A stretch of DNA of 25,618 nt, taken from IMG/VR virus record IMGVR_UViG_3300036770_004271, positions 1-25,618 of that record. One strand, given 5' to 3'. Source of the stretch: a virus. The notes beneath the pieces are model-generated. The model had not been told where the DNA came from and did not search any database. It saw nothing but the letters and a program-made list of their open reading frames with translations. Positions 4,909-24,631 of the stretch are shown piece after piece. The position numbers were made by a program, and so were the translations under genes. Every line of letters starts with the position of its first letter. Position 1 is the stretch's first letter.

Positions 4909-4937
4909 TATACTTACTATAAAGGAGTAAGTATATG
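4909..4937 (+). promoter_or_regulatory. Hairpin hiding the ribosome site of the GIY-YIG gene
   Basis: ATACTTAC (4910-4917) is a perfect inverted repeat of GTAAGTAT (4927-4934), extendable by one T-A pair. The loop TATAAAGGA plus the first G of the 3' arm hold the AAGGAG Shine-Dalgarno, and the ATG follows at once. T4 homing-endonuclease genes such as I-TevI use comparable hairpins to block translation from read-through transcripts. The same function here is inferred. Confidence 0.7.
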
Positions 4938-5819
4938 GAATTTAAATTTGAAGGTAAATCTCTCAAGTCTGGCGTATATAAAATTGTTAATAAGTTGAAT
5001 GGTAGAACATATTATGGTTCTGCTAAAGAATTTAAACGACGTTCAAAACAACATGTTAAAGCTTTAGAAGCTGGCAAGCATTACAATAAATTTTTGCAAG
5101 CTGATTTCAATGCATGTGGGACAGATGCATTTATTTTTGAGGTTATTGAGGTTGTTGAAGGTGATAAAAACGATCGTCTTTTAGTTGAACAGAGATATCT
5201 TGACATATATCAAGGTTCACGTGATAATTGTTATAATCTTCGTAAGGAAGCTAATGCGACTGATGGTTGTTGGAGTAAGAATCCTGAAATAACAAAGAAA
5301 AAACATTCTTTGGCTTCAAAAAAGATGTGGGAAAGTGAAGAACATCGTAAAAATATTTCTGAGAAAAATTCTGAAGCTTCAAAAAAACAATGGTCAGATC
5401 CTGAGATTAGAGAAAAAATGATAAAGAAGATACGTGAAGTTGGTGAAAGAATGAAAGGTGTTCCCCGAGCCAAACATTCAGAAGAAACCAAGAGAAAGAT
5501 TGCGATTGCACATACTGGTTTATCTTCACCACATAAGGGTAAAAAATTATCAGAAGAACATGCTGAAAAATCAAGAAAGTGTTTATTACAATACGCAAAA
5601 TCGGAGAAGAGGATTGAAGCTTTACGTTCTGCTGCAAGAATAAAGAGAGGAAAACCCATAATCGCTTGGAACATATCTGAACCTGATAAAAAAATTGAAT
5701 TTTTAGCTATTAGACAAGCGGCAAAAGAAATATTTGTAAATCCTGTTTCAATAAGAAAGATATTGAGAGGGCATATGAAAATGACAAAAGCAGGTTGGAT
5801 ATTTTCTTATAAGGAGTAA
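4935..5819 (+). CDS. GIY-YIG homing endonuclease with NUMOD domains
   Basis: 294 aa. N-terminal GIY-YIG nuclease (about 10-100): GVYKI (13-17), TYYGSA (25-30), a following Arg/Lys-rich helix and a Glu near 85 in VEQRYLD. The middle holds NUMOD3-like DNA-binding motifs (KHSEETKRKIAIAHTG and HKGKKLSEEHAEK), preceded by looser repeats of the same kind (SLASKKMW, EASKKQW). The C-terminus (about 238-292, KPIIAWN to AGWIFSYKE) resembles NUMOD1 plus a helix-turn-helix. This is the SegA-type free-standing homing endonuclease layout. It lies directly after terL and is bracketed by near-identical short repeats, suggesting insertion at that site. Translation is probably controlled by the hairpin over its ribosome site. 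Confidence 0.92.
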   Translation: MEFKFEGKSLKSGVYKIVNKLNGRTYYGSAKEFKRRSKQHVKALEAGKHYNKFLQADFNACGTDAFIFEVIEVVEGDKNDRLLVEQRYLDIYQGSRDNCYNLRKEANATDGCWSKNPEITKKKHSLASKKMWESEEHRKNISEKNSEASKKQWSDPEIREKMIKKIREVGERMKGVPRAKHSEETKRKIAIAHTGLSSPHKGKKLSEEHAEKSRKCLLQYAKSEKRIEALRSAARIKRGKPIIAWNISEPDKKIEFLAIRQAAKEIFVNPVSIRKILRGHMKMTKAGWIFSYKE

Positions 5820-5873: not shown

Positions 5874-6320
5874 ATGCACAGATATCTAAGACTTGCTATG
5901 CAATATGCTGATGATTATCCCTTTGATGAGGAGATGGATTATAATCTATGTGCTCTTATTGTTAAGGGTGGTAGTGTTATATCAGTTGGGTATAACAAAA
6001 TGAATACCAATGCATTTGTTGAGCATTATGCTGATATTACTCGTGGACGAGGCAGAGATTTTTGTTTATCTACTCATGCTGAACAGGATGCGGTATTGAA
6101 GGCACGTAGCAAGGTTGATTTGCGTGGTTGTAAGATATTTGTAGCACGTCGTAAGAAACTTGATGGTGGGCCCGGGATGGCCCGTCCATGTCCTATTTGT
6201 GAGAATGTATTGCTCAATTATGGAATTCGTAAGGCGTATTATACGATTAATCGTGAACAATATGGTAAAATGCTAATTAAGCCATATGGAGATACGTCTG
6301 ACGTTATAATTGAAGTATGA
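5874..6320 (+). CDS. dCMP/cytidine deaminase-family enzyme
   Basis: 148 aa. Zinc deaminase signature: HAEQDA (68-73, His and catalytic Glu) and PCPIC (105-109, two zinc Cys). Total length and the inserted THAEQDAVLKA context match phage deoxycytidylate deaminases, which convert dCMP to dUMP to feed dTMP synthesis. A tRNA- or other nucleotide-specific deaminase cannot be excluded, because substrate residues are not diagnostic by eye. No kinase-like or allosteric extension is seen. It is preceded by a promoter only 8 bases from the ATG, and its end overlaps the next HNH gene by 4 bases (ATGA). Confidence 0.8.
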   Translation: MHRYLRLAMQYADDYPFDEEMDYNLCALIVKGGSVISVGYNKMNTNAFVEHYADITRGRGRDFCLSTHAEQDAVLKARSKVDLRGCKIFVARRKKLDGGPGMARPCPICENVLLNYGIRKAYYTINREQYGKMLIKPYGDTSDVIIEV

Positions 6321-6775
6321 TTATTTTATGCAAGAAAACTGGTTGTAATTTATGTTTTCGTAATTTGCGTTTTAGAAAAAGATCAAAAAGATATTTTAAG
6401 ATATGTTTTGATTGTTATAATGCGGAGCGTTTACGGATACGTAGTAATAATCGGCATCGTAGGACTCGCCGTTATAATGCTGGTCGTATACGTTTAGCTG
6501 ATTGGATTGAAATATTAGAGATTCATAAATTTCAATGTGCGGATTGTGGAAAAAGGGGTCGTCATAATTTAACGATTGATCATATTATTCCGATTAGTGA
6601 AGGTGGTTCTAATTCTGCAAACAATATTCAACCGCTTTGTGTTCCTTGTCATGAACGTAAAGATGGATATGTTAGAAGACCTTTATGGTGGTTGAGAAGA
6701 ATGTTGCGAAAATGGCGGCGTTTTATTAAAAAAAAGACTGGATTATTTTTACCAAAGATAAAACTTCTACAGTAA
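6317..6775 (+). CDS. HNH endonuclease with N-terminal zinc knuckle
   Basis: 152 aa. Residues 5-33 hold paired Cys (CKKTGCNLC, CFDC) that probably bind zinc, followed by a very Arg-rich stretch (about 38-58) suited to DNA contact. The nuclease domain has CADCG (74-78), LTIDHIIPISEGG (85-97, Asp88 and His89), NIQPLC (103-108) and CxxCH (108-112), the classic HNH pattern. The C-terminus is basic and Trp-rich (WWLRRMLRKWRRF). It overlaps the deaminase stop by 4 bases. It is likely another homing-type nuclease; its target is not evident. Confidence 0.88.
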   Translation: MIILCKKTGCNLCFRNLRFRKRSKRYFKICFDCYNAERLRIRSNNRHRRTRRYNAGRIRLADWIEILEIHKFQCADCGKRGRHNLTIDHIIPISEGGSNSANNIQPLCVPCHERKDGYVRRPLWWLRRMLRKWRRFIKKKTGLFLPKIKLLQ

Positions 6776-14662: not shown

Positions 14663-15934
14663 ATGAACACCAAAGAAGAAATACAAAAATTAGAAGATGC
14701 ATGGATTTTTAATCAAAGATGGCATGGAATAAAGCGTCCTTATAGTGCAGAAGATGTTTTAAAACTTCGTAGTAAAGTTCATATAGAACATAGTCTTGCA
14801 CGTCTTGGAGCTAATAAACTTTGGAAACGATTGCAATCACAATCTTATGTTGCTGGTTTAGGTGCGTTAACTGGAAATCAAGCAGTTCAAGAAGTAGCAG
14901 CAGGATTAGAAGCAATCTATCTAAGTGGTTGGCAAGTAGCAGCAGATGCGAACTTAGCTGGTCATATGTATCCGGATCAATCACTTTATCCAATTGATAG
15001 TGTTCCGGCAGTTGTTAAAAAGATTAATAATGCATTATTGCGTTGTGAACAGATTGATAGTGTAAATGGGGATAATAGTAAAGATTGGATGGTTCCAATT
15101 GTAGCTGATGCTGAAGCTGGATTTGGTGGCAATTTAAATGCATATGAATTGATGAAAATGATGATTGAGGCTGGTGCTGCTGGTGTTCATTTTGAAGATC
15201 AATTATCAAGTGCAAAGAAGTGTGGACATTTAGGTGGTAAAGTATTGGTGCCAACCAGCGAAGCAATTGCCAAGCTTATTGCGGCGAGATTAGCTGCTGA
15301 TGTTATGGACGTTCCAACTCTTGTTATTGCCAGAACTGATGGTGAAGCGGCAAATCTTATAACAAGCGATATTGATGAAAGAGATCGTCCATTTCTTACT
15401 GGTGAGAGAACCGCAGAAGGTTTTTATCGTGTTCGTAATGGATTAGAACAATGTATAGCCCGTGGATTGGCATATGCAGAATATGCAGATCTTCTATGGA
15501 TGGAAACGGGTAAACCCGATTTAGAAGTAGCCAAAGCTTTTGCAGAAGGTATACATAAAGTATTTCCGAATAAAATGTTAGCTTATAATTGTTCGCCAAG
15601 TTTTAATTGGGCGAAATATCTTTCTAAAGAACAAATGTTAACATTTCGTGAAGAGTTGGCGGCAATGGGTTATCGTTTTCAATTTATTACTCTTGCTGGA
15701 TTTCATTCTCTTAATACTTCAATGTTTGAATTAAGTAAAGCATATAAAACATATGGTATGGCAGGATTTTCAGAATTACAACAAAAAGAATTTGCTATGC
15801 AAGATGAAGGTTTCCGAGCCGTTAAACATCAAAGCTTTGTAGGGACTGGATATTTTGATTATATTCAAAATACGGTTCAAGCTGGTGCATCTACGGTCGC
15901 CTTAAAGGACAGCACCGAGGCAGAACAATTTTGA
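14663..15934 (+). CDS. aceA: Isocitrate lyase
   Basis: 423 aa, full family length. It splits isocitrate into succinate and glyoxylate, the first step of the glyoxylate shunt, in the cytoplasm as a tetramer. Diagnostic motifs are intact: [20 protein letters not shown] (88-107), metal-site region [11 protein letters not shown] (146-156), catalytic loop KKCGHLGGK (185-193, Cys187), IARTDGEAA (222-230), YNCSPSFNW (308-316) and a C-terminal lid ending STEAEQF. By memory it closely follows the short actinobacterial AceA (about 428 aa). No malate synthase is present here, so glyoxylate would go to host enzymes. The next gene starts inside its stop codon. I know of no common phage homologue, so this is an unusual auxiliary metabolic gene. 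Confidence 0.95.
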
Positions 15935-16365
15935 TAGCCAATCAAACAATAGCATTATCTGGTGGTTTTGATATTATTCATCCTGGTCATATTCGGATGA
16001 TTAATGGGGCTCAACATTTTGGGCGTGTTATAATCATATTGAATAGTGATGAATGGATTATAAAAAGAAAAGGCGTATTAATGATGCCTTGGCACGAACG
16101 TAAAGAAATATTATTGGCTATTAAAGGTGTAGATATTGTAGAACCTGTAGATGATCGTGATGGAACTGTTTGTGAAGCATTAAAAAGATTAAGACCTAAT
16201 GTATTTGGTAATGGTGGTTTAAGGGGTGAGAGAAACACTCCAGAACGTGCATTATGTAATGAATTAGGTATTGCTTTGGTATTTGGTATTGGTGGTGGGG
16301 AACGTGATGCATATAGCAATTCTATATTAGAAAAAATATATTCTGCTAAACGACCGAATATTTAA
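15931..16365 (+). CDS. Cytidylyl/adenylyltransferase (HldE/RfaE C-terminal type)
   Basis: 144 aa. The nucleotidyltransferase signature [11 protein letters not shown] (11-21) contains the HxGH motif that binds the [12 protein letters not shown] (residues near 88-96) resembles the conserved PDV-xx-KGGD region of the heptose-1-phosphate adenylyltransferase RfaE/HldE, and [16 protein letters not shown] near the end resembles its closing Sxx(I/L)xxI helix. It would activate a sugar- or polyol-phosphate; the exact substrate is unknown. The start codon is taken as TTG, sharing TTGA with the isocitrate lyase stop, so the two are translationally coupled. Together with the cupin isomerase downstream it suggests glycan precursor chemistry. 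Confidence 0.75.
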
Positions 16366-16910: not shown

Positions 16911-16948
16911 GTTTATATACAAATATGTATACGTTATTTTAAACGTAT
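16911..16948 (+). promoter_or_regulatory. Promoter motif and inverted repeat over the start of the PurA/PurZ-like gene
   Basis: GTTTAT (16911-16916) is followed after 17 bases by a poor -10, TTATTT (16934-16939). ATACGTT (16929-16935) is a perfect inverted repeat of AACGTAT (16942-16948), spaced 6, and the right arm includes the AT of the ATG. It could be an operator or a start-codon-hiding hairpin. Confidence 0.45.
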
Positions 16949-17966
16949 GACTAATATAAAAATTGATCTTGTTGTAGGGTTATCTCATGGGGATGAAGGA
17001 AAAGGCAAAGTTTGTCATGCATTGCTCGGAAAGGGTATGTATACACATTGTCTTAGATTTGGTGGCGGCGGAAATGCTGGACATACAATATTCCATAAAG
17101 GAAAAAAATATATAACTCATCTTATACCTTCTGGAGTATTTCATGGTATTCGTTCTATTGTTGGACCGGGTTGTGTAGTTAATACGTCTAAATTTCTTGA
17201 AGAAATAAAATATCTTGAAGACGGTTTAGGAAAAAAGATTGATGTTGGTATTGCTAAAAATACACATCTTGTAACTGCTGATCATTTATTGGAAGATGGT
17301 GGAGATACCAAGATTGGAACAACGAAAACTGGTAATGGTCCAGCATATTCTTCAAAATATGCTCGTCGTGGTGTAAGAGCAGAACATGATCCAGTTTTAA
17401 AATCATTTTTAATGGATATGTATGAGGAGTTTTATTCTTCCAATACTCGTTCTGTTATTTTAGCAGAGGGAGCACAAGCATTTAATTTAGATATTGATTG
17501 GGGAGATTATCCATATGTCACCAGTAGTCATTGCGGTGTTGGTGGTTTGCTTAACAATGGCTTTCATCATAAGCATATAAGAAACGTATATGGCGTTATA
17601 AAAGCATATGACACATATGTAGGTGCAAAGCAGTTTCAGCCTTCTGGAGAGGTTTTTAATCGCATACAGGAGATAGGACAAGAGTTTGGAGCCACGACAG
17701 GAAGAAAGCGTCAAGTTAATTGGCTTGATTGGAATATGATTGAGCGTGGTATAAAGATGAATGGTGTTACTACTCTTATTGTTAACAAAGCTGATGTTTT
17801 GGATCAAGTTGGTGTTTGGGGAATTATTGAAAATGGTAATGTGATTGAATTTAAATCCAAAGAAAATTTCAAAGCTTGGTTAGATGCAAAGACATTTTCA
17901 TTGGATATGAACAATATTGTTTTTTCGGAAAGTGCAGATGATATAGATTTTGTTGATCATCTGTAA
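16947..17966 (+). CDS. Short adenylosuccinate synthetase (PurA/PurZ type)
   Basis: 339 aa against about 430 for bacterial PurA; this short form is seen in archaeal PurA and in phage PurZ. PurA joins Asp to IMP with GTP; PurZ does the same to dGMP on the route to 2-aminoadenine (Z) DNA. Visible: GLSHGDEGKGK (11-21) with Asp16, GGGGNAGHTI (39-48) with the acid His46, GTTKTGNGPAYSSK and ARRGVR for substrate phosphate, ATTGRKRQVNWLD, and NKADVLD for the nucleotide base. The Asp of GDEGKGK is kept; from memory, dGMP-specific PurZ enzymes often lack it, so a purine role on IMP remains possible. No DatZ, MazG or DpoZ partner lies in this window. Confidence 0.85.
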   Translation: MTNIKIDLVVGLSHGDEGKGKVCHALLGKGMYTHCLRFGGGGNAGHTIFHKGKKYITHLIPSGVFHGIRSIVGPGCVVNTSKFLEEIKYLEDGLGKKIDVGIAKNTHLVTADHLLEDGGDTKIGTTKTGNGPAYSSKYARRGVRAEHDPVLKSFLMDMYEEFYSSNTRSVILAEGAQAFNLDIDWGDYPYVTSSHCGVGGLLNNGFHHKHIRNVYGVIKAYDTYVGAKQFQPSGEVFNRIQEIGQEFGATTGRKRQVNWLDWNMIERGIKMNGVTTLIVNKADVLDQVGVWGIIENGNVIEFKSKENFKAWLDAKTFSLDMNNIVFSESADDIDFVDHL

Positions 17967-18428: not shown

Positions 18429-18457
18429 TTTAAAAAATCGGTTTCGTCTGCTATAGT
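18429..18457 (+). promoter_or_regulatory. Promoter of the amidoligase cassette, leaderless type
   Basis: TTTAAA (18429-18434), 17 bases, TATAGT (18452-18457), 8 bases, ATG at 18466. No Shine-Dalgarno. The 80 bases before it contain C and T runs but no convincing terminator. Confidence 0.6.
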
Positions 18458-18465
18458 GTATATAT

Positions 18466-19560
18466 ATGACGATGACGAACAGGACGTTTGGTGTTGAGAT
18501 TGAGTGTATCGGTGTGTCGCAGACGACTGCGCTGGATGCTCTCCGTGCAGCGGGCGTGAATGCCGAGATCGAGTCTTACAACCATAACACTCGGACGCAT
18601 TGGAAGATCACCTATGACTCCTCGGTTTCTGGTCCCGGTGGGATGCCTGGCATCGAGGTTGTGTCGCCGGTTTTGTCGGGACCGGAGGGTCTTGCGGAGC
18701 TTCGCAAGGTTGCGGACGCTTTGAATGCTGCGGGCGCTACTGCTAATCGCACGTGTGGTCTTCACGTTCACGTCGGCACGACCGATCTCACGATTGACGA
18801 CATTAAGACGATTGTGAAGCGATACACGACGTTCGAGAACGTGATCGATACGTTTATGCCGAATTCTCGTCGGGGTGATAATAACACCTATACCAAGAGT
18901 ATGCGTCGGTGGGCAGCGTGCGAGGGTAGTCGTCTGGAAGCTTGTGAGAGCCTTTCCGCTCTTCGTAGTAGCTACTTTGATCGTTATTACAAGATCAATC
19001 TGGCGGCGTTCGTTCGTCAGGGCACGATTGAATTCCGGCAGCACAGCGGCACGGTTAGTGCAGAGAAGATTACGAATTGGGTTCTTTTCGTTCTTAACTT
19101 CGTTGAGCAGAGTCGGGTGACGATGGTGGTTTCGGATGCTGCCCCGGCTCGTCGTCGTGGACGCCCCGGTGGTCGTTCTAATGCTCGTGATAAGGGTCTT
19201 TTCAAGATCTTGAACATGTTGAACGATTATAATGCTCACGGTGAGCGTCCCACCATTCAGAGGCTTGCGGAGGTTTCTGGTTATTCTGAGGCGAGCATTC
19301 CGGCGTGTATTTCTGAGATTCGTCGCAAGTGGAACGTGCGTGTTCGTAAGAGCCGTTGGGCGAATGCTTACGTGACTGTGGGTCTGACTGCCGAGCGTTA
19401 TGAGCAAATTCGTAGTCAGGTTTCTGGCGAGGTTGTGGCTCCTGCTCCGGTGACTCGGGTTGCTGTCCCGGTGTATGCTGGTGAGGACTCGGCTCTGCGT
19501 GGTCTTCCGATGAGCGTTGTTAGCTACTTCAACGAGCGTGCAGCGGAGCTTGCGGCGTGA
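18466..19560 (+). CDS. Amidoligase (COOH-NH2 ligase, Amidoligase_2 family) with C-terminal helix-turn-helix region
   Basis: 364 aa. The glutamine-synthetase/GCS-like ligase core shows FGVEIE (8-13, metal-binding Glu), GIEVVSPVLSG (62-72), CGLHVHVG (97-104) and GTIEFRQHSGT (186-196), the signature set of phage and bacterial amidoligases that form amide bonds between carboxylates and amines using ATP. After a basic linker (ARRRGRPGGR) residues 245-300 look like a winged-helix DNA-binding region (TIQRLAEVSGYSEASIPACISEIRR). The DNA is clearly richer in G/C than its neighbours (34 of 60 in 18541-18600) and codon use shifts, suggesting recent transfer. It overlaps the next gene (GTGA) and is one gene away from a cyclotransferase. 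Confidence 0.88.
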   Translation: MTMTNRTFGVEIECIGVSQTTALDALRAAGVNAEIESYNHNTRTHWKITYDSSVSGPGGMPGIEVVSPVLSGPEGLAELRKVADALNAAGATANRTCGLHVHVGTTDLTIDDIKTIVKRYTTFENVIDTFMPNSRRGDNNTYTKSMRRWAACEGSRLEACESLSALRSSYFDRYYKINLAAFVRQGTIEFRQHSGTVSAEKITNWVLFVLNFVEQSRVTMVVSDAAPARRRGRPGGRSNARDKGLFKILNMLNDYNAHGERPTIQRLAEVSGYSEASIPACISEIRRKWNVRVRKSRWANAYVTVGLTAERYEQIRSQVSGEVVAPAPVTRVAVPVYAGEDSALRGLPMSVVSYFNERAAELAA

Positions 19561-19787
19561 TTTACCGATTCTTTAATTACGATATTCCCGCCAATAATCA
19601 TTCTGAATTCGTTCGGAGATTGTGGGCAAGCAGTTGGACGGCAGCGGGTGCGCCGCAAGGCTATATGGAGGAAGTGGCAGATCGAGTTTATATATTGGAA
19701 GGACGATTCCTCCGGACTCAGAACGAAACTAAGTTCGTAGAAGATTTGCAGACTGCCGGTTATCTTAGTATTATTGCATTGCATTAA
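19557..19787 (+). CDS. Small protein (76 aa) coupled to the amidoligase
   Basis: It starts at GTG within the amidoligase stop (GTGA), so translation is coupled. The sequence (RFFNYDIPANNHSEFVRRLW, YMEEVADRVYILEG, then TKFVEDLQTAGYLSIIAL) is unrecognised. Its position between ligase and cyclotransferase makes it a candidate substrate, carrier or regulator of the cassette; that is inference. Its base composition is between that of the GC-rich ligase and the AT-rich genome. Confidence 0.65.
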   Translation: MIYRFFNYDIPANNHSEFVRRLWASSWTAAGAPQGYMEEVADRVYILEGRFLRTQNETKFVEDLQTAGYLSIIALH

Positions 19788-19798
19788 GAGGTGATATA

Positions 19799-20182
19799 GT
19801 GCATCGTGTTTTTGTATATGGCAGTCTAAAGCGTGGTTTTGGTAATAATAGTATTCTTGGTAATTCTGAATTTCTTGGAGAACGGATTACTGCGGATAAT
19901 CATTATAGAATGATTTCTTTTGGTGCTTTCCCAGGAGTGATTTTTTCTAAGTCTGCTAAGACTGTTGCCAAGGTTTTTGGTGAACTTTATGTTGTCAACG
20001 ATTATGTTCTAAAGCGACTGGATATGTTGGAGGGTAATGGAAATTTTTATCAGCGAGAATTGGTTTCTTTGATTGATGAGGAGCATCCGGCTTGGATGTA
20101 TTTGTTGGTAAGTCGGGATTATCCATATAATTCTTTGGATACCATTGATCGTAATGGTGAAAAGATTTTTAAATGGAGATAA
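19799..20182 (+). CDS. AIG2/gamma-glutamyl cyclotransferase-like protein
   Basis: 127 aa, start GTG with an AGAGGTG site. The motif VFVYGSLKRGFGNN (4-17) is the substrate-binding YGSL loop of the GGCT/AIG2 fold, and LDMLEGNGNFYQRELV contains the LDxxEG..Y.R segment whose Glu is usually catalytic. Such enzymes release 5-oxoproline from gamma-glutamyl amines or peptides. Comparative genomics (Iyer, Aravind and colleagues) linked AIG2-like proteins with amidoligases, where one makes and the other removes glutamyl-type amides. It has lower G/C than the amidoligase, so the cassette may be of mixed origin or partly ameliorated. Confidence 0.82.
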   Translation: MHRVFVYGSLKRGFGNNSILGNSEFLGERITADNHYRMISFGAFPGVIFSKSAKTVAKVFGELYVVNDYVLKRLDMLEGNGNFYQRELVSLIDEEHPAWMYLLVSRDYPYNSLDTIDRNGEKIFKWR

Positions 20183-20227: not shown

Positions 20228-20301
20228 GTTTCCGTAGTTCAATGGATAGAACACACGCCTTCTAAGCGTTGAGGTTGCTGGTTCGACCCCAGCCGGGAAC
20301 G
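20228..20301 (+). tRNA. tRNA-Arg (anticodon TCT)
   Basis: Acceptor GTTTCCG/CGGGAAC, D stem GTTC/GAAC, anticodon stem ACGC/GCGT (outer C-T mismatch) with loop CTTCTAA, T stem GCTGG/CCAGC with loop TTCGACC, discriminator G. It would read AGA/AGG, which are frequent in the AT-rich genes here. Confidence 0.93.
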
Positions 20302-20342: not shown

Positions 20343-20654
20343 ATGCGTGATAGGATGGAAATTTCTGGAGAGGTTGTTGAGCATTGTAAGGACATTTTCA
20401 AGGTCCGAATTGATGGCGGCGATCAGATTGTGACAGCAAAGCTTTCTGGTAAGATGCGACAAAATAAGATTAATCTTCAAGTTGGTGATCGTGTGCGAGT
20501 GGAGGTTAGTCCATATGATATGAATATGGGTCGTATTACATTCCGCATGTCAAGTGGTCGTGAGTATATCGTTCGGGATGATGATGACGATGATACGCCC
20601 AAGAAGAAGCCGCAGAAGCGTCCTCGTTATCGTGAGCGGGATGAGGATGAGTAA
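20343..20654 (+). CDS. infA: Translation initiation factor IF-1 with charged C-terminal tail
   Basis: 103 aa; cellular IF-1 is about 72. Residues 5-70 match the S1-like OB fold in order: MEISGEVVEHCKDIFKVRID, then AKLSGKMRQNKINL (the H/LSGKMRxNxI signature), GDRVRVEVSPYDMNMGRITFR (near 53-73, cf. GD-V-VE-SPYD--KGRI-FR). IF-1 occupies the ribosomal A site on the 30S subunit and helps IF-2 and IF-3 select the initiator tRNA. The extra 30 residues are a run of Asp followed by Lys/Arg and an acidic end, absent in bacterial IF-1. It lies 41 bases after tRNA-Arg and overlaps the next gene. Confidence 0.93.
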   Translation: MRDRMEISGEVVEHCKDIFKVRIDGGDQIVTAKLSGKMRQNKINLQVGDRVRVEVSPYDMNMGRITFRMSSGREYIVRDDDDDDTPKKKPQKRPRYRERDEDE

Positions 20655-20871
20655 GCCGAATATATTTCGTATACAATTTAATTATTTACCGGATTATCAA
20701 GAGCGGGTTCAGATTGAGGCCGCTCTTCGGCTTTGTGGAGCATATGTTCAAGATTTTATATATTTGTTCAATCGCAACATATTGCTCTATAAACTAACCG
20801 CAGAACAATACGAAACCTTTATTAATAAATTTAGTCAAACCCAATATTGGAACAATTGCAATGTCCTATAA
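20647..20871 (+). CDS. Unknown small protein (74 aa) between IF-1 and the RNA methyltransferase
   Basis: The frame extends upstream inside IF-1, but that part is a shadow. The ATG at 20647 (MSKPNIFRIQF) overlaps the IF-1 stop by 8 bases and gives a sensible protein. It is aromatic-rich with a possible beta-alpha-beta pattern (IFRIQFNYLPDYQER, ALRLCGAYVQDFIYLFN). No family recognised. It ends inside the start of the methyltransferase gene, so the three are one coupled operon, hinting at a translation-related job. Confidence 0.65.
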   Translation: MSKPNIFRIQFNYLPDYQERVQIEAALRLCGAYVQDFIYLFNRNILLYKLTAEQYETFINKFSQTQYWNNCNVL

Positions 20872-21379
20872 TCCAGACCTTTCGGGATTTACTCGTGAAG
20901 AAATTTGTGATGCCCTTGATGAAGTTCGTCAACCGGTAAGTATTGCAATCTTTGGTAGTAAAAATGAATTTAATATCGGTGGTATGATCAGAACCGCTCA
21001 TAACTTTCTTGTGCGAGATATTCATCTTGTTGAAGTTGAATGGTTTTATGAGAAGGGTGCGCTTTCTACATTGAAATATGAAAAGCGTAATCTTAAGCGT
21101 TGGTCTACTCTTCGTTCTTTTATTGATGCAATGTCTGGACAAAATATCATTGCATTTGAACGACGAATTGAACTAAATACCAAAGATATTCGTTCATATC
21201 GTTATCCTTCTAATCCTGTTCTATTTTTTGGTAATGAACAATATGGAGTTCCAGATGAGATTTTGGAACGAGCTAATGATATTGTTAGTATTCCTATGCT
21301 TGGATTAAATAATGATCACAATGTATCTGTTGCTTGTGGTATTGTTCTCTACGATTGGTTTTATAAGAACAATAGATAA
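20861..21379 (+). CDS. SpoU/TrmH-family RNA 2'-O-methyltransferase
   Basis: 172 aa, about the size of single-domain TrmL/TrmH enzymes. The three SPOUT motifs are present: motif 1 NEFNIGGMIRTAHNF (35-49, with the catalytic Arg in IRTA), motif 2 PVLFFGNEQYGVPDEIL, motif 3 SIPMLGLNNDHNVSVACGIVLYDW, which build the knotted S-adenosylmethionine site. Family members methylate ribose in tRNA (positions 18 or 34) or 23S rRNA. In this operon with IF-1 and a tRNA it probably tunes phage or host tRNA, or the ribosome. The target cannot be told by eye. Confidence 0.9.
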   Translation: MSYNPDLSGFTREEICDALDEVRQPVSIAIFGSKNEFNIGGMIRTAHNFLVRDIHLVEVEWFYEKGALSTLKYEKRNLKRWSTLRSFIDAMSGQNIIAFERRIELNTKDIRSYRYPSNPVLFFGNEQYGVPDEILERANDIVSIPMLGLNNDHNVSVACGIVLYDWFYKNNR

Positions 21380-21647: not shown

Positions 21648-22013
21648 ATGAGTTTTGCAGCATTAACCCGAAAAGAAATAGAAACTTTATTAAAAAAGGT
21701 TCAAGGGATTGCTGCACTCTTAAAGGACGTTAATGACATATTGGCATCTGAAAGTAATGATCCAAGTGATCCAGAAGATAACGTGATACATATTGTTCCT
21801 GGCCTTATGCAACAATTTGAAAGAAATCAAAAAGTTAAAATGACGGTTGTAGATGTTATAACGTTATATGAAAATTGGACTAAAGCTTTATATGAAGCAA
21901 CGATTAATAATAAAGGACATATGCAAAATCGTGTTATACGAAATCATATGCAACAAGCCTATCAAATTTGTCGTTCTGTAGAACAAATATTGAAAAATTT
22001 GATGAATGCATAA
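21648..22013 (+). CDS. Unknown all-helical protein (121 aa)
   Basis: Predicted by eye to be four helices (TRKEIETLLKKVQGIAALL, QQFERNQKVKMTVVDVITLY, ENWTKALYEATI, NHMQQAYQICRSVEQILKNL). No motif recognised. AAGGA ribosome site 5 bases before the ATG. It lies between a small acidic protein and the Dps-like ferritin, all in one direction, so it is probably co-transcribed with them. Confidence 0.6.
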   Translation: MSFAALTRKEIETLLKKVQGIAALLKDVNDILASESNDPSDPEDNVIHIVPGLMQQFERNQKVKMTVVDVITLYENWTKALYEATINNKGHMQNRVIRNHMQQAYQICRSVEQILKNLMNA

Positions 22014-22024
22014 TATTTAGGAAC

Positions 22025-22528
22025 ATGACTATGTTAAAATTAGAAGATTTATTTATGACTTATGGTGATTCCAAGTATGCTGAACTTGGAATTTTTATTG
22101 ATTTATTAAGAGCCCTTTCCATGTTGCATCATACACATCATTGGCAAACAAAAGGTTCTCAATTTTATGGTGATCATCTTTTATATCAGAGATTGTATGA
22201 ATTAGCAGATGGTCAAATTGATTTAGTTGGTGAGAAGGCAGTAGGTTTAGGTTCACCAGAATTAGTAGATTATAGACATTCATTAGAGAATATGAATCGT
22301 TATTTGAATGCGGTTGAAGCTGGAGATATAATGGATACTCCGGCTCTTAAAATGGCAAAACGATCTCTCCTTGCGGAAAAATCGTTTATTACAGCCGGTG
22401 AAAAAATGATGGATCAACTTAAAAGTAAAGGTCTATTAACAAGAGGAGTTGAACAGCTTCTTGGAACCATTCTTGATCAACATGAAGGTGTTTTATATCT
22501 TCTCAAGCAAAGAATTTCTGGAGCCTGA
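22025..22528 (+). CDS. Dps-like ferritin-family protein
   Basis: The ATG at 22025 (MTMLKLEDLF) has an AGGA site; the longer frame from 21968 overlaps the previous gene and is rejected. 167 aa, the usual Dps size. Residues 28-75 resemble the Dps ferroxidase/dimer region: ALSMLHHTHHWQTKG (30-44), FYGDHLLYQRLYEL and ADGQIDLVGEKAVGLG, with His, Asp and Glu at the expected spacing. Dps dodecamers store iron and protect DNA from peroxide; some bind DNA. A phage copy could protect replicating DNA. A bacterioferritin-like relative is also possible. It converges with the minus-strand operon, 2 bases apart. Confidence 0.75.
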   Translation: MTMLKLEDLFMTYGDSKYAELGIFIDLLRALSMLHHTHHWQTKGSQFYGDHLLYQRLYELADGQIDLVGEKAVGLGSPELVDYRHSLENMNRYLNAVEAGDIMDTPALKMAKRSLLAEKSFITAGEKMMDQLKSKGLLTRGVEQLLGTILDQHEGVLYLLKQRISGA

Positions 22529-22530
22529 TC

Positions 22531-22890
22531 TCAACGTAATATATCACCCGAAACAATTCGGATATGATCAGATGGAAACCAACCTACTTGTTGATAATGA
22601 TCTAAAAATACTGGAAACATATTGATGAAATCATTTGTTCCGCCAAGAGCAGCAGTAGGTGGAACATTTTGTAAATGTAATAATTGTGTTCTATGAATTT
22701 TAAGTGGTGTTCCTTGAATGGTTCCTGTTGAACCTGTTTTTACGCCACCTAATCTTTGAAATTCAAATGATCCATCATATGATTCTTTTAATTGACCATT
22801 TGAAGCTTTTGCGGGACCATATACCGGTAAAATTTCATCTGCGGTATTTAACATTAATGCAGAACTTATAACAACTCTATCACCTTTCAT
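22531..22890 (-). CDS. Unknown beta-rich protein (119 aa) directly after groEL
   Basis: It starts MKGDRVVISSALM with a GAGGAG site inside the end of groEL and ends close to the Dps stop. The composition (Gly, Val, Ile, few helices; GDRVVI, GGVKTGSTGTIQGTP, VGWFPSDHIRIVSGD) suggests a small beta-barrel of SH3/KOW style. Its place next to a chaperonin invites the idea of a co-chaperonin such as T4 gp31 (111 aa), but I see no GroES signature or convincing mobile loop, so this is only a hypothesis. Confidence 0.6.
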   Translation of the reverse strand: MKGDRVVISSALMLNTADEILPVYGPAKASNGQLKESYDGSFEFQRLGGVKTGSTGTIQGTPLKIHRTQLLHLQNVPPTAALGGTNDFINMFPVFLDHYQQVGWFPSDHIRIVSGDILR

Positions 22891-22891
22891 A

Positions 22892-24631
22892 TCAATTCTC
22901 CTCTATGTTTACAATTACTGAATTACAACTCAACATTAATCCTATCACGCTAACTGCATGTGAAAGAGCAGCTCGTGTTACTTTAATAGGATCAATAACT
23001 CCTTCATTAACTAAATCACCGTAAGTTCCTTTAGCGGCATTATAACCGAATCTTTTATTTTCTGGTTGGTCTTGTCGTTTTTTGAATTCTTTTACGGCAG
23101 AAACTAAATCATCTACATCAACATTTTGAGTGTCAATATAAAAAACCTTATGTCCAGTCTGAGATTGTTTCAATCTTTCTTTAATAACATCTGGACTTGC
23201 ACCGGTATTGCTTACTATGGTATTAAGTGGATATTCACAAACATTTGCTATAATTTCATAACCGGCTAATATATCTGAATTTATAGGTTCAATTGTGGTG
23301 GCTTGCATTAATTTAACATATTCTCGTAAATGAGAAGCGGCATAATACAAAGCAGTACCACCACCAGGAACAATACCTTCTTGTGTAGCTGCCAATGTCG
23401 CATTTACTGCATCCTCTACTCTATCTTTTTTCTCTAAAATCTCTACTTCCGTAGAACCACCCACCTTAATTACTGCAACGCCTCCAGATAGTCTTGCAAG
23501 CCTTTTACGATATTTGTCAACGTGTAAGGCATCCAAGGTCTTGTCTTCAATCAAAGAGGTTCTGAGAGCCCGTATACGGTCTTCTAAAGCCTGTTTGCGA
23601 TCACCATCTAAATCACTAATGATTGTAGTTGTATTGCGACCTATTATAACTTTCTTAGCAGATCCAAGATTATTAATAGTTGCCTTTTTAAGATTTAAAT
23701 CAGTTGTGGCATTGAATACAGTTCCACCTGTCAATGTTTGAATATCTGAAAGTATATCTGCACGATGTTCACCATAACTTGGAGCCTTGATCGCACAAAC
23801 CTTAACAACACCTTTTGTTTTATTAACAATAAGAGTATGAAGTGCTTCACCTTCTACATCATCTGCAATGATTAATAATGAACGTGAAGTTTTAAGAACA
23901 CCTTCCAATAATCCAATAATGTCTTGTATAGAAGAAATTTTATTTGGCGTTATAAGAATATATGGATTTTCAAGTTCACAAGTCGCACGTTCAGAATTTG
24001 TAATAAAAAATGGAGAAACATAACCGCTGTCCAATTGCATACCTTCTACAATATCAAGCGTTGTTTCAACACTTTTTGCTGGTTCTACCGTAATAATACC
24101 ATCATTACCTACACGTTCTATTGCCGTAGCTAATAATTCACCAATAGAACGATCACCATTGGCTGATATAGTTCCAACATTCACTACATCATCCCTGGAA
24201 GAAACTGGAGTGGCTATATTTTTTAAATAATCAATAATAATATCTGAAGCTTTATCCATTCCTTTTTTGATATCAATTGCAGAACGTCCAGTTGATATCA
24301 TTTTAAGACCTTCCGAAAATATAGCATGACCAAGAACGGTAGCAGTTGTTGTCCCATCTCCAGCTATATCATTTGTTTTAGATGCAACTTCTTTTAATAA
24401 TTCGGCACCCATTGATTGTAATTTATCTTTTAAATTAATAGATTTAGCTACAGTTACTCCATCTTTTGTTATAAGAGGAGGACCAGTTTCCATATCAATG
24501 ATTACAGAATGTCCAGATGGTCCCATTGTAGAAGCTACAGCATTTGCAAGAATTGTAGCTCCTTTGAAAAGCTCTTCATGAGCTTTAGGAAAGAAAACAA
24601 CTTGTTGTGTAGGAGAATTTTGATTTGTCAT
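22892..24631 (-). CDS. groEL: GroEL-type chaperonin (group I)
   Basis: 579 aa. It forms ATP-driven folding rings in the cytoplasm. The equatorial ATP site is intact: MGPSGHSVI (36-44), TKDGVTV (55-61, Asp57), GDGTTTATVL (91-100) and EDAVNATLAATQEGIVPGGG containing the hydrolytic Asp. The apical domain has SGYVSPFFITN and LLIIADDVEGEALHTL, the region that holds substrates. The ending resembles GroEL (DPIKVTRAALSHAV) but lacks the Gly-Met tail, and a basic insertion (KKRQDQPENKR) precedes the GYNAA segment. Some jumbo phages (for example Pseudomonas phage EL) encode GroELs that work without GroES. The start overlaps the upstream gene by 4 bases (ATGA). Confidence 0.96.
   Translation of the reverse strand: MTNQNSPTQQVVFFPKAHEELFKGATILANAVASTMGPSGHSVIIDMETGPPLITKDGVTVAKSINLKDKLQSMGAELLKEVASKTNDIAGDGTTTATVLGHAIFSEGLKMISTGRSAIDIKKGMDKASDIIIDYLKNIATPVSSRDDVVNVGTISANGDRSIGELLATAIERVGNDGIITVEPAKSVETTLDIVEGMQLDSGYVSPFFITNSERATCELENPYILITPNKISSIQDIIGLLEGVLKTSRSLLIIADDVEGEALHTLIVNKTKGVVKVCAIKAPSYGEHRADILSDIQTLTGGTVFNATTDLNLKKATINNLGSAKKVIIGRNTTTIISDLDGDRKQALEDRIRALRTSLIEDKTLDALHVDKYRKRLARLSGGVAVIKVGGSTEVEILEKKDRVEDAVNATLAATQEGIVPGGGTALYYAASHLREYVKLMQATTIEPINSDILAGYEIIANVCEYPLNTIVSNTGASPDVIKERLKQSQTGHKVFYIDTQNVDVDDLVSAVKEFKKRQDQPENKRFGYNAAKGTYGDLVNEGVIDPIKVTRAALSHAVSVIGLMLSCNSVIVNIEEN

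Follow-up and report, generated by a model that had tools for sequence, protein, structure and literature searches.

The window analysed here is a 25.6-kb IMG/VR virus record, and all positions below are window coordinates. It encodes a T4-type large terminase with 39% identity to Microcystis phage Mel-JY01, and no DNA similarity to named phages was detected. Three intact genes lie in series on its plus strand: an Amidoligase_2 protein of 364 residues with a GS-type fold (18466..19560), a small partner protein of 76 residues (19557..19787) and a GGACT/AIG2-type gamma-glutamyl cyclotransferase (GGCT) of 127 residues (19799..20182). The GTG start of the small-protein gene sits within the GTGA of the ligase stop, and the GGCT gene starts 11 bases past the small-protein stop; this arrangement had been described in the original prediction and was confirmed.

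The surrounding genes were also inspected. An isocitrate lyase gene (PF00463, 6e-108) is followed by a cytidylyltransferase-like gene that starts inside its last codons (14663-16365), both of them metabolic genes of a kind unusual in a phage, and a short adenylosuccinate synthetase is encoded at 16947-17966. The latter resembles bacterial PurA (1.9e-51) more closely than it does PurZ (1e-15 to 1.5e-12), and the possibility that it is a PurZ serving a 2-aminoadenine genome was therefore rejected. After the cassette, at 20343-21379 and 21968-24631, the sequence points to an IF-1-like S1 protein, a SpoU-type methylase, a weakly ferritin-like protein and a GroEL-like chaperonin. Candidates for HNH- and GIY-YIG-like homing endonucleases were recognized by eye at 499-1729, 4935-5819 and 6317-6775.

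The first and third genes had been predicted, from their motifs, to encode an amidoligase and an AIG2-type cyclotransferase, and profile searches bore out both identities. The ligase matched PF12224 with an E-value of 6.4e-40 (138 bits against a cut-off of 22) over positions 2-244 of the 245 in the profile, and PHROG 2443 with an E-value of 1.5e-45. All 24 invariant columns of a 41-sequence alignment, with their acidic, histidine and arginine residues, are present in the window ligase. Its AlphaFold2 (AF2) model (mean pLDDT 88.8) has a GS-type core that was superposed by VIA-align on YbdK (1r8g; Z 12.6, 207 residues, rmsd 3.4) and on glutamine synthetase (Z 12.5), and a PDB sequence search with the ligase detected no relation to enzymes of these types. 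On the strength of its family and its active-site-type residues, the window ligase is predicted to catalyze ATP-dependent amide ligation. The cyclotransferase matched PF06094 with an E-value of 1.7e-20 (74 bits against a cut-off of 22.8), contains a VYGSLKRG motif and aligns with E. coli YtfP (1xhs, 7e-11); its Glu78 occupies the catalytic position, aligned to E82 of the GGACT structures. It is predicted to release 5-oxoproline from gamma-glutamyl amines.

All three genes are present, with their order kept, in five sister contigs of the same phage group (L001, L002, L006, L009 and L010), whose ligases are ~60% identical to that of the window and whose small proteins are 45-53% identical. The dN/dS ratios for the ligase, small-protein and GGCT genes were 0.16, 0.17 and 0.12, respectively, between L001 and L002, and 0.11, 0.05 and 0.16 between L009 and L010; in both pairs compared, dN was well under dS for every gene, which for the small protein indicates purifying selection. 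As the order is kept in five sisters and dN/dS is low, the cassette is not a chance arrangement. The same order was found in unrelated contigs (L022, L024, L025, L034, L035, L050, L078 and L081). The original prediction had been open to failure had the ligase matched no amidoligase family, or had the three genes not been found together in any related phage; neither outcome was observed, as the family match is significant and the order is conserved in both the sister and the unrelated contigs.

The cassette appears to carry its own expression signals. A TTTAAA-N17-TATWST motif lies directly 5' of it in all six phages (in the window, TTTAAA-N17-TATAGT at 18429..18457, plus strand), although in a scan of the window the motif count on its own hardly exceeds that in shuffled sequence. 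The ligase ATG lies 8 nt past the second hexamer in the window, and ~7-8 bases past it across the six phages, and no Shine-Dalgarno sequence is evident before the ligase start in the window or its five relatives. The proximity of the start codon to the promoter-like hexamer and the lack of an evident Shine-Dalgarno sequence suggest that the ligase mRNA is possibly leaderless. In the relatives, tRNA-Met and tRNA-Gly genes precede the cassette and a tRNA-Arg gene follows it; the downstream boundary of the cassette in the window is likewise a tRNA-Arg gene (20228..20301, plus strand), as it is in L001, L006 and L009. The GC content of the ligase gene (18466-19557) is 53-56%, with a GC3 of about 0.5-0.6, compared with 35% for the window and a GC3 of about 0.2 for its neighbours. 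This contrast persists in the five diverged relatives, and the ligase gene is therefore not a recent import. In its promoter-like element, tRNA flanks and composition the cassette looks like a moron. An open frame of 318 codons antisense to the ligase (18451-19407, minus strand) is probably a by-product of the ligase codon composition.

The small protein was examined as a family. Scans of viral contigs with single ligase or small-protein sequences found no relatives, whereas GGCT and alignment queries did; a profile built from three small-protein sequences reached remote relatives, and its iteration converged at 74 distinct members. No significant match to the family was found in Pfam, NCBIfam or PHROGs (isolated weak matches had E-values of at least 0.0018), and by this comparison the small protein founds an undescribed family outside those collections. 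A match to Pfam Imm22 (DUF4284) was noise (E 0.17), and the PADLOC models of anti-phage defence gave a sole weak match, to the small protein (E 0.06), and no defence call. With respect to a RiPP recognition element or PqqD-like carrier, the small protein had neither a Pfam match of significance nor, by Foldseek, a PDB match with an E-value of 0.001 or less. That the gene is a random open reading frame is ruled out by the conserved family, the purifying selection and a confidently predicted fold.

Members of this family are encoded almost exclusively beside amidoligases. When the ligases were grouped at 70% identity, a small-protein gene lay within 1.6 kb of the ligase in 53 of the 88 resulting clusters. 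Among the 10,269 open reading frames of 134 loci, which had been chosen for their amidoligases, no family member was found away from an amidoligase. A larger, unbiased survey covered 194 genomes of one order, in which nine of 12 small-family copies adjoin an amidoligase; in 150 genomes of a second order, three of four do so. When 50,697 phage records were searched with a Bacteroides member of the family, all ten matching records bore an amidoligase, adjacent to the match. Members with no adjacent amidoligase were found in L142 (5344-5649, minus strand), L143 (4847-5005) and L144 (4476-4700). The two genes overlap or abut in 42 of 73 measured pairs, and in 20 of these the overlap is 4 bp (ATGA in 17, GTGA in three). 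Prophage and phage copies occur in Bacteroides, Porphyromonas and Desulfovibrio contigs; in one Porphyromonas phage (L135, 4731-5751), the small-protein gene, annotated as hypothetical, is followed by a short hypothetical gene and HicA/HicB-like genes.

Ligase and small-protein distances were correlated (Spearman 0.52, where the highest of 500 permutations gave 0.22), which shows co-inheritance and not contact. In the tree comparison, presence of the small protein requires nine changes. The label for the group with the small protein alone requires seven changes, compared with 25.8 when labels were shuffled, and is thus clustered and mostly inherited.

An AF2 prediction from 51 aligned small proteins gave a beta-beta-alpha-alpha-alpha-beta fold with a mean pLDDT of 94.5 and a pTM of 0.83. 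The best Foldseek match in the PDB had an E-value of 2.1, and VIA-align returned a single row (Z 2.2, 39 aligned residues, rmsd 2.9); the lack of a clear PDB match for a predicted model does not, however, prove a new fold. Small unnamed viral proteins in BFVD matched the model structurally, with a best E-value of 1.7e-4 and a TM of 0.89.

The original prediction had offered the 76-residue protein as a possible substrate or carrier. In such a role, it would receive from the ligase an amine or amino acid that the cyclotransferase would remove, in the manner of Pup, LysW or graspetide-like systems. Its small size, its translational coupling to the ligase and its co-inheritance with it are consistent with such a role. 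However, none of the 51 sequences' positions is invariant: the commonest residues (F60, R43, L64, G68, M37 and D63) are present in 80-86% of members, and the best acidic column, D63, reaches 80%. The C-termini are variable, the fold is compact, and 35 of the 53 ligase clusters with a small protein have neither GGCT nor a glutamine amidotransferase (GATase) nearby. For these reasons a dedicated accessory subunit is favoured, and a substrate or carrier is considered unlikely.

The ligase itself extends beyond its catalytic domain. A basic linker, RRRGRPGGR, with an AT-hook-like RGRP core (residues 229-237; 19150..19176) is predicted with low confidence (pLDDT <50 at 229-236), and the same sequence as RRRGRPAGR, or a near variant, occurs in all five sister ligases. 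The winged-helix-like region that had been proposed to follow the linker was recovered by AF2 as an HHH-EE arrangement at residues 240-305, within a domain spanning residues 240-320 (19183..19425; helices 240-258, 264-271, 275-289 and 309-320, strands 292-296 and 301-305). DUF3489 (PF11994) was found at the corresponding place in relatives (L057, 3e-15; L055, 5e-10); it fell below the cut-off in L013 and L060 and was undetected in the window ligase, where position and predicted fold agree with it. A C-terminal helix (residues 349-363; 19510..19554), seen in alignments and in the AF2 model, carries a recurrent ligase-family motif, (Y/F)..R....LA. Bacteroidetes ligases have instead a conserved N-terminal helix-turn-helix (HTH)-like segment, and those of Arthrobacter phages have another, dissimilar segment of this kind, both recognized by eye where Pfam gave no match. 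Extensions of at least 45 residues at the N-terminus occur in 47 of the 88 clusters, and of at least 90 residues at the C-terminus in 24. HTH-type fusions, partly predicted by eye, thus occur repeatedly, at the N-terminus in some ligases and at the C-terminus in others.

The third gene of the cassette is also variable among phages. Near the ligase, GGCT was found in 25 of the 88 clusters, a class-II glutamine amidotransferase in 24 and both in three, suggesting that the two are mostly alternative third genes, albeit with few independent pairs in the tree comparison. In phage C75C1 (L140, 4717-5613) they are fused in one protein of 298 residues (GGACT, 2.7e-21). Glutamine is hydrolysed at its gamma-amide by class-II amidotransferases, and gamma-glutamyl amides are cyclised by GGCTs; as each acts on gamma-glutamyl amides, both would fit a gamma-glutamyl amide as the product of the ligase.

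The reading that best accommodates these observations, to which we assign a probability of roughly 45%, is that the three genes form a self-contained phage module under their own likely promoter, in which an HTH-targeted ligase with an accessory small subunit is paired with an enzyme that cleaves gamma-glutamyl amides. The ligase and small protein would form a single functional enzyme, in which the small protein serves as an accessory or specificity subunit. At the expense of ATP, this enzyme would link a carboxylate, that of glutamate or of a glutamyl group, with an amine of a macromolecule to which the HTH domain gives access. The cyclotransferase would open gamma-glutamyl amides, releasing 5-oxoproline, and would so reverse or recycle what the ligase makes. 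Write-and-erase chemistry, as originally proposed for the cassette, is a plausible hypothesis. Counting against the module are the many ligase-small protein pairs with no eraser nearby and the few small-protein orphans. The target may be a DNA-bound protein, DNA, the cell wall or a metabolite. A narrower version is doubtful: in it, DNA or a protein bound to it would receive a gamma-glutamyl-type amide from the heteromer of HTH-bearing ligase and small subunit, and would lose it again to either a GGCT or a class-II amidotransferase, the two being interchangeable.

It is quite unlikely that the cassette modifies the cell wall, adding or trimming gamma-glutamyl-type cross-links in peptidoglycan precursors so that superinfecting phages are excluded. 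The same enzyme classes do co-occur in phiEco32/LUZ24-type cassettes (PMC5498523; PMC3890496; LUZ24 map). However, neither GATase_6 (PF13522) nor RimK (PF08443), the ATP-grasp model searched, matched the window or the five sister records, all of them fragments; no member of the small family was detected in LUZ24 or UFV-P2, and the HTH domains would be left unexplained. Less probable again is a metabolic set in which a free gamma-glutamyl amine or amide is made by the ligase and broken by the cyclotransferase in nitrogen or redox metabolism. The nearest folds to the ligase, YbdK and glutamine synthetase, and the isocitrate lyase and PurA-like neighbours would suit such a role, but the winged helix and the dedicated small protein would have no explanation in it, and in relatives the cassette is flanked by tRNA genes, its base composition being unlike that of its neighbours. 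The role of the HTH could be autoregulation instead of targeting, making the ligase a BirA-like bifunctional enzyme-repressor of its own cassette, as its winged helix and the conserved promoter-like element right before its gene would allow, but HTH domains of different types, at both ends, in phages with different neighbours make this the least probable explanation.

With the modular reading, of a ligase with its accessory subunit and a paired amide-cleaving enzyme, preferred, the cassette can be set against known systems. The amidoligase survey of Iyer et al. in 2009, as cited in PMC5498523 and PMC11318856, is reportedly the source for the phiEco32/LUZ24-type phage cassette. That cassette resembles the present one in its Amidoligase_2 and GGCT, which a class-II glutamine amidotransferase sometimes joins, whereas it has in addition a second COOH-NH2 ligase, an ATP-grasp enzyme and GATase (LUZ24 map). 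A search with COOH-NH2_lig (PF14395) gave no match, and nor did the controls. The small protein is extra here: LUZ24 and UFV-P2 appear to lack its family, as profile comparison found nothing to link it with LUZ24 gp20 or UFV-P2 ORF26 (73 and 72 residues, encoded 3' of GATase). For these cassettes a cell-wall role has been proposed (PMC5498523, PMC11318856). The phi13 prophage of Clostridium clostridioforme has members of PHROG 2443 and PHROG 2520 near each other, in a table that leaves the intervening and flanking genes unnamed, and such prophage pairs share the amidoligase and GGCT, with no small partner or HTH fusion described in the accessible part of that account (PMC11318856).

That phages pair Amidoligase_2 with GGCT or GATase is already known. 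No description was found in the accessible literature of the small partner family, of its nearly exclusive linkage or of HTH-type fusions that recur, although the 2009 survey may include the small protein or the fusions. Phage amidoligases are widespread, and the accessible parts of the literature report no tested substrate. The small family offers a handle on these enzymes: it probably supplies a missing subunit, the lack of which might account for an inactive recombinant enzyme, and it is a marker for one branch of phage amidoligase systems. The HTH-type fusions direct the search for substrates to nucleic acid or bound proteins, besides the proposed cell wall, and the Bacteroides, Porphyromonas and Desulfovibrio copies are places in which the system could be tested.

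The individual components can be compared in the same way. The gene logic of a ligase with a small protein is shared with pupylation, LysW and graspetide systems, but here there is no conserved acceptor residue and the ligase is an Amidoligase_2 protein, not an ATP-grasp enzyme or Pup ligase. With YbdK and other glutamate-cysteine-ligase-type enzymes, and with glutamine synthetase, the window ligase shares its catalytic fold, to which it adds the winged helix. The cyclotransferase shares the Pfam GGACT family, the VYGSLKRG motif and the glutamate at the E82 position with human GGACT and E. coli YtfP, but is here encoded by a phage.
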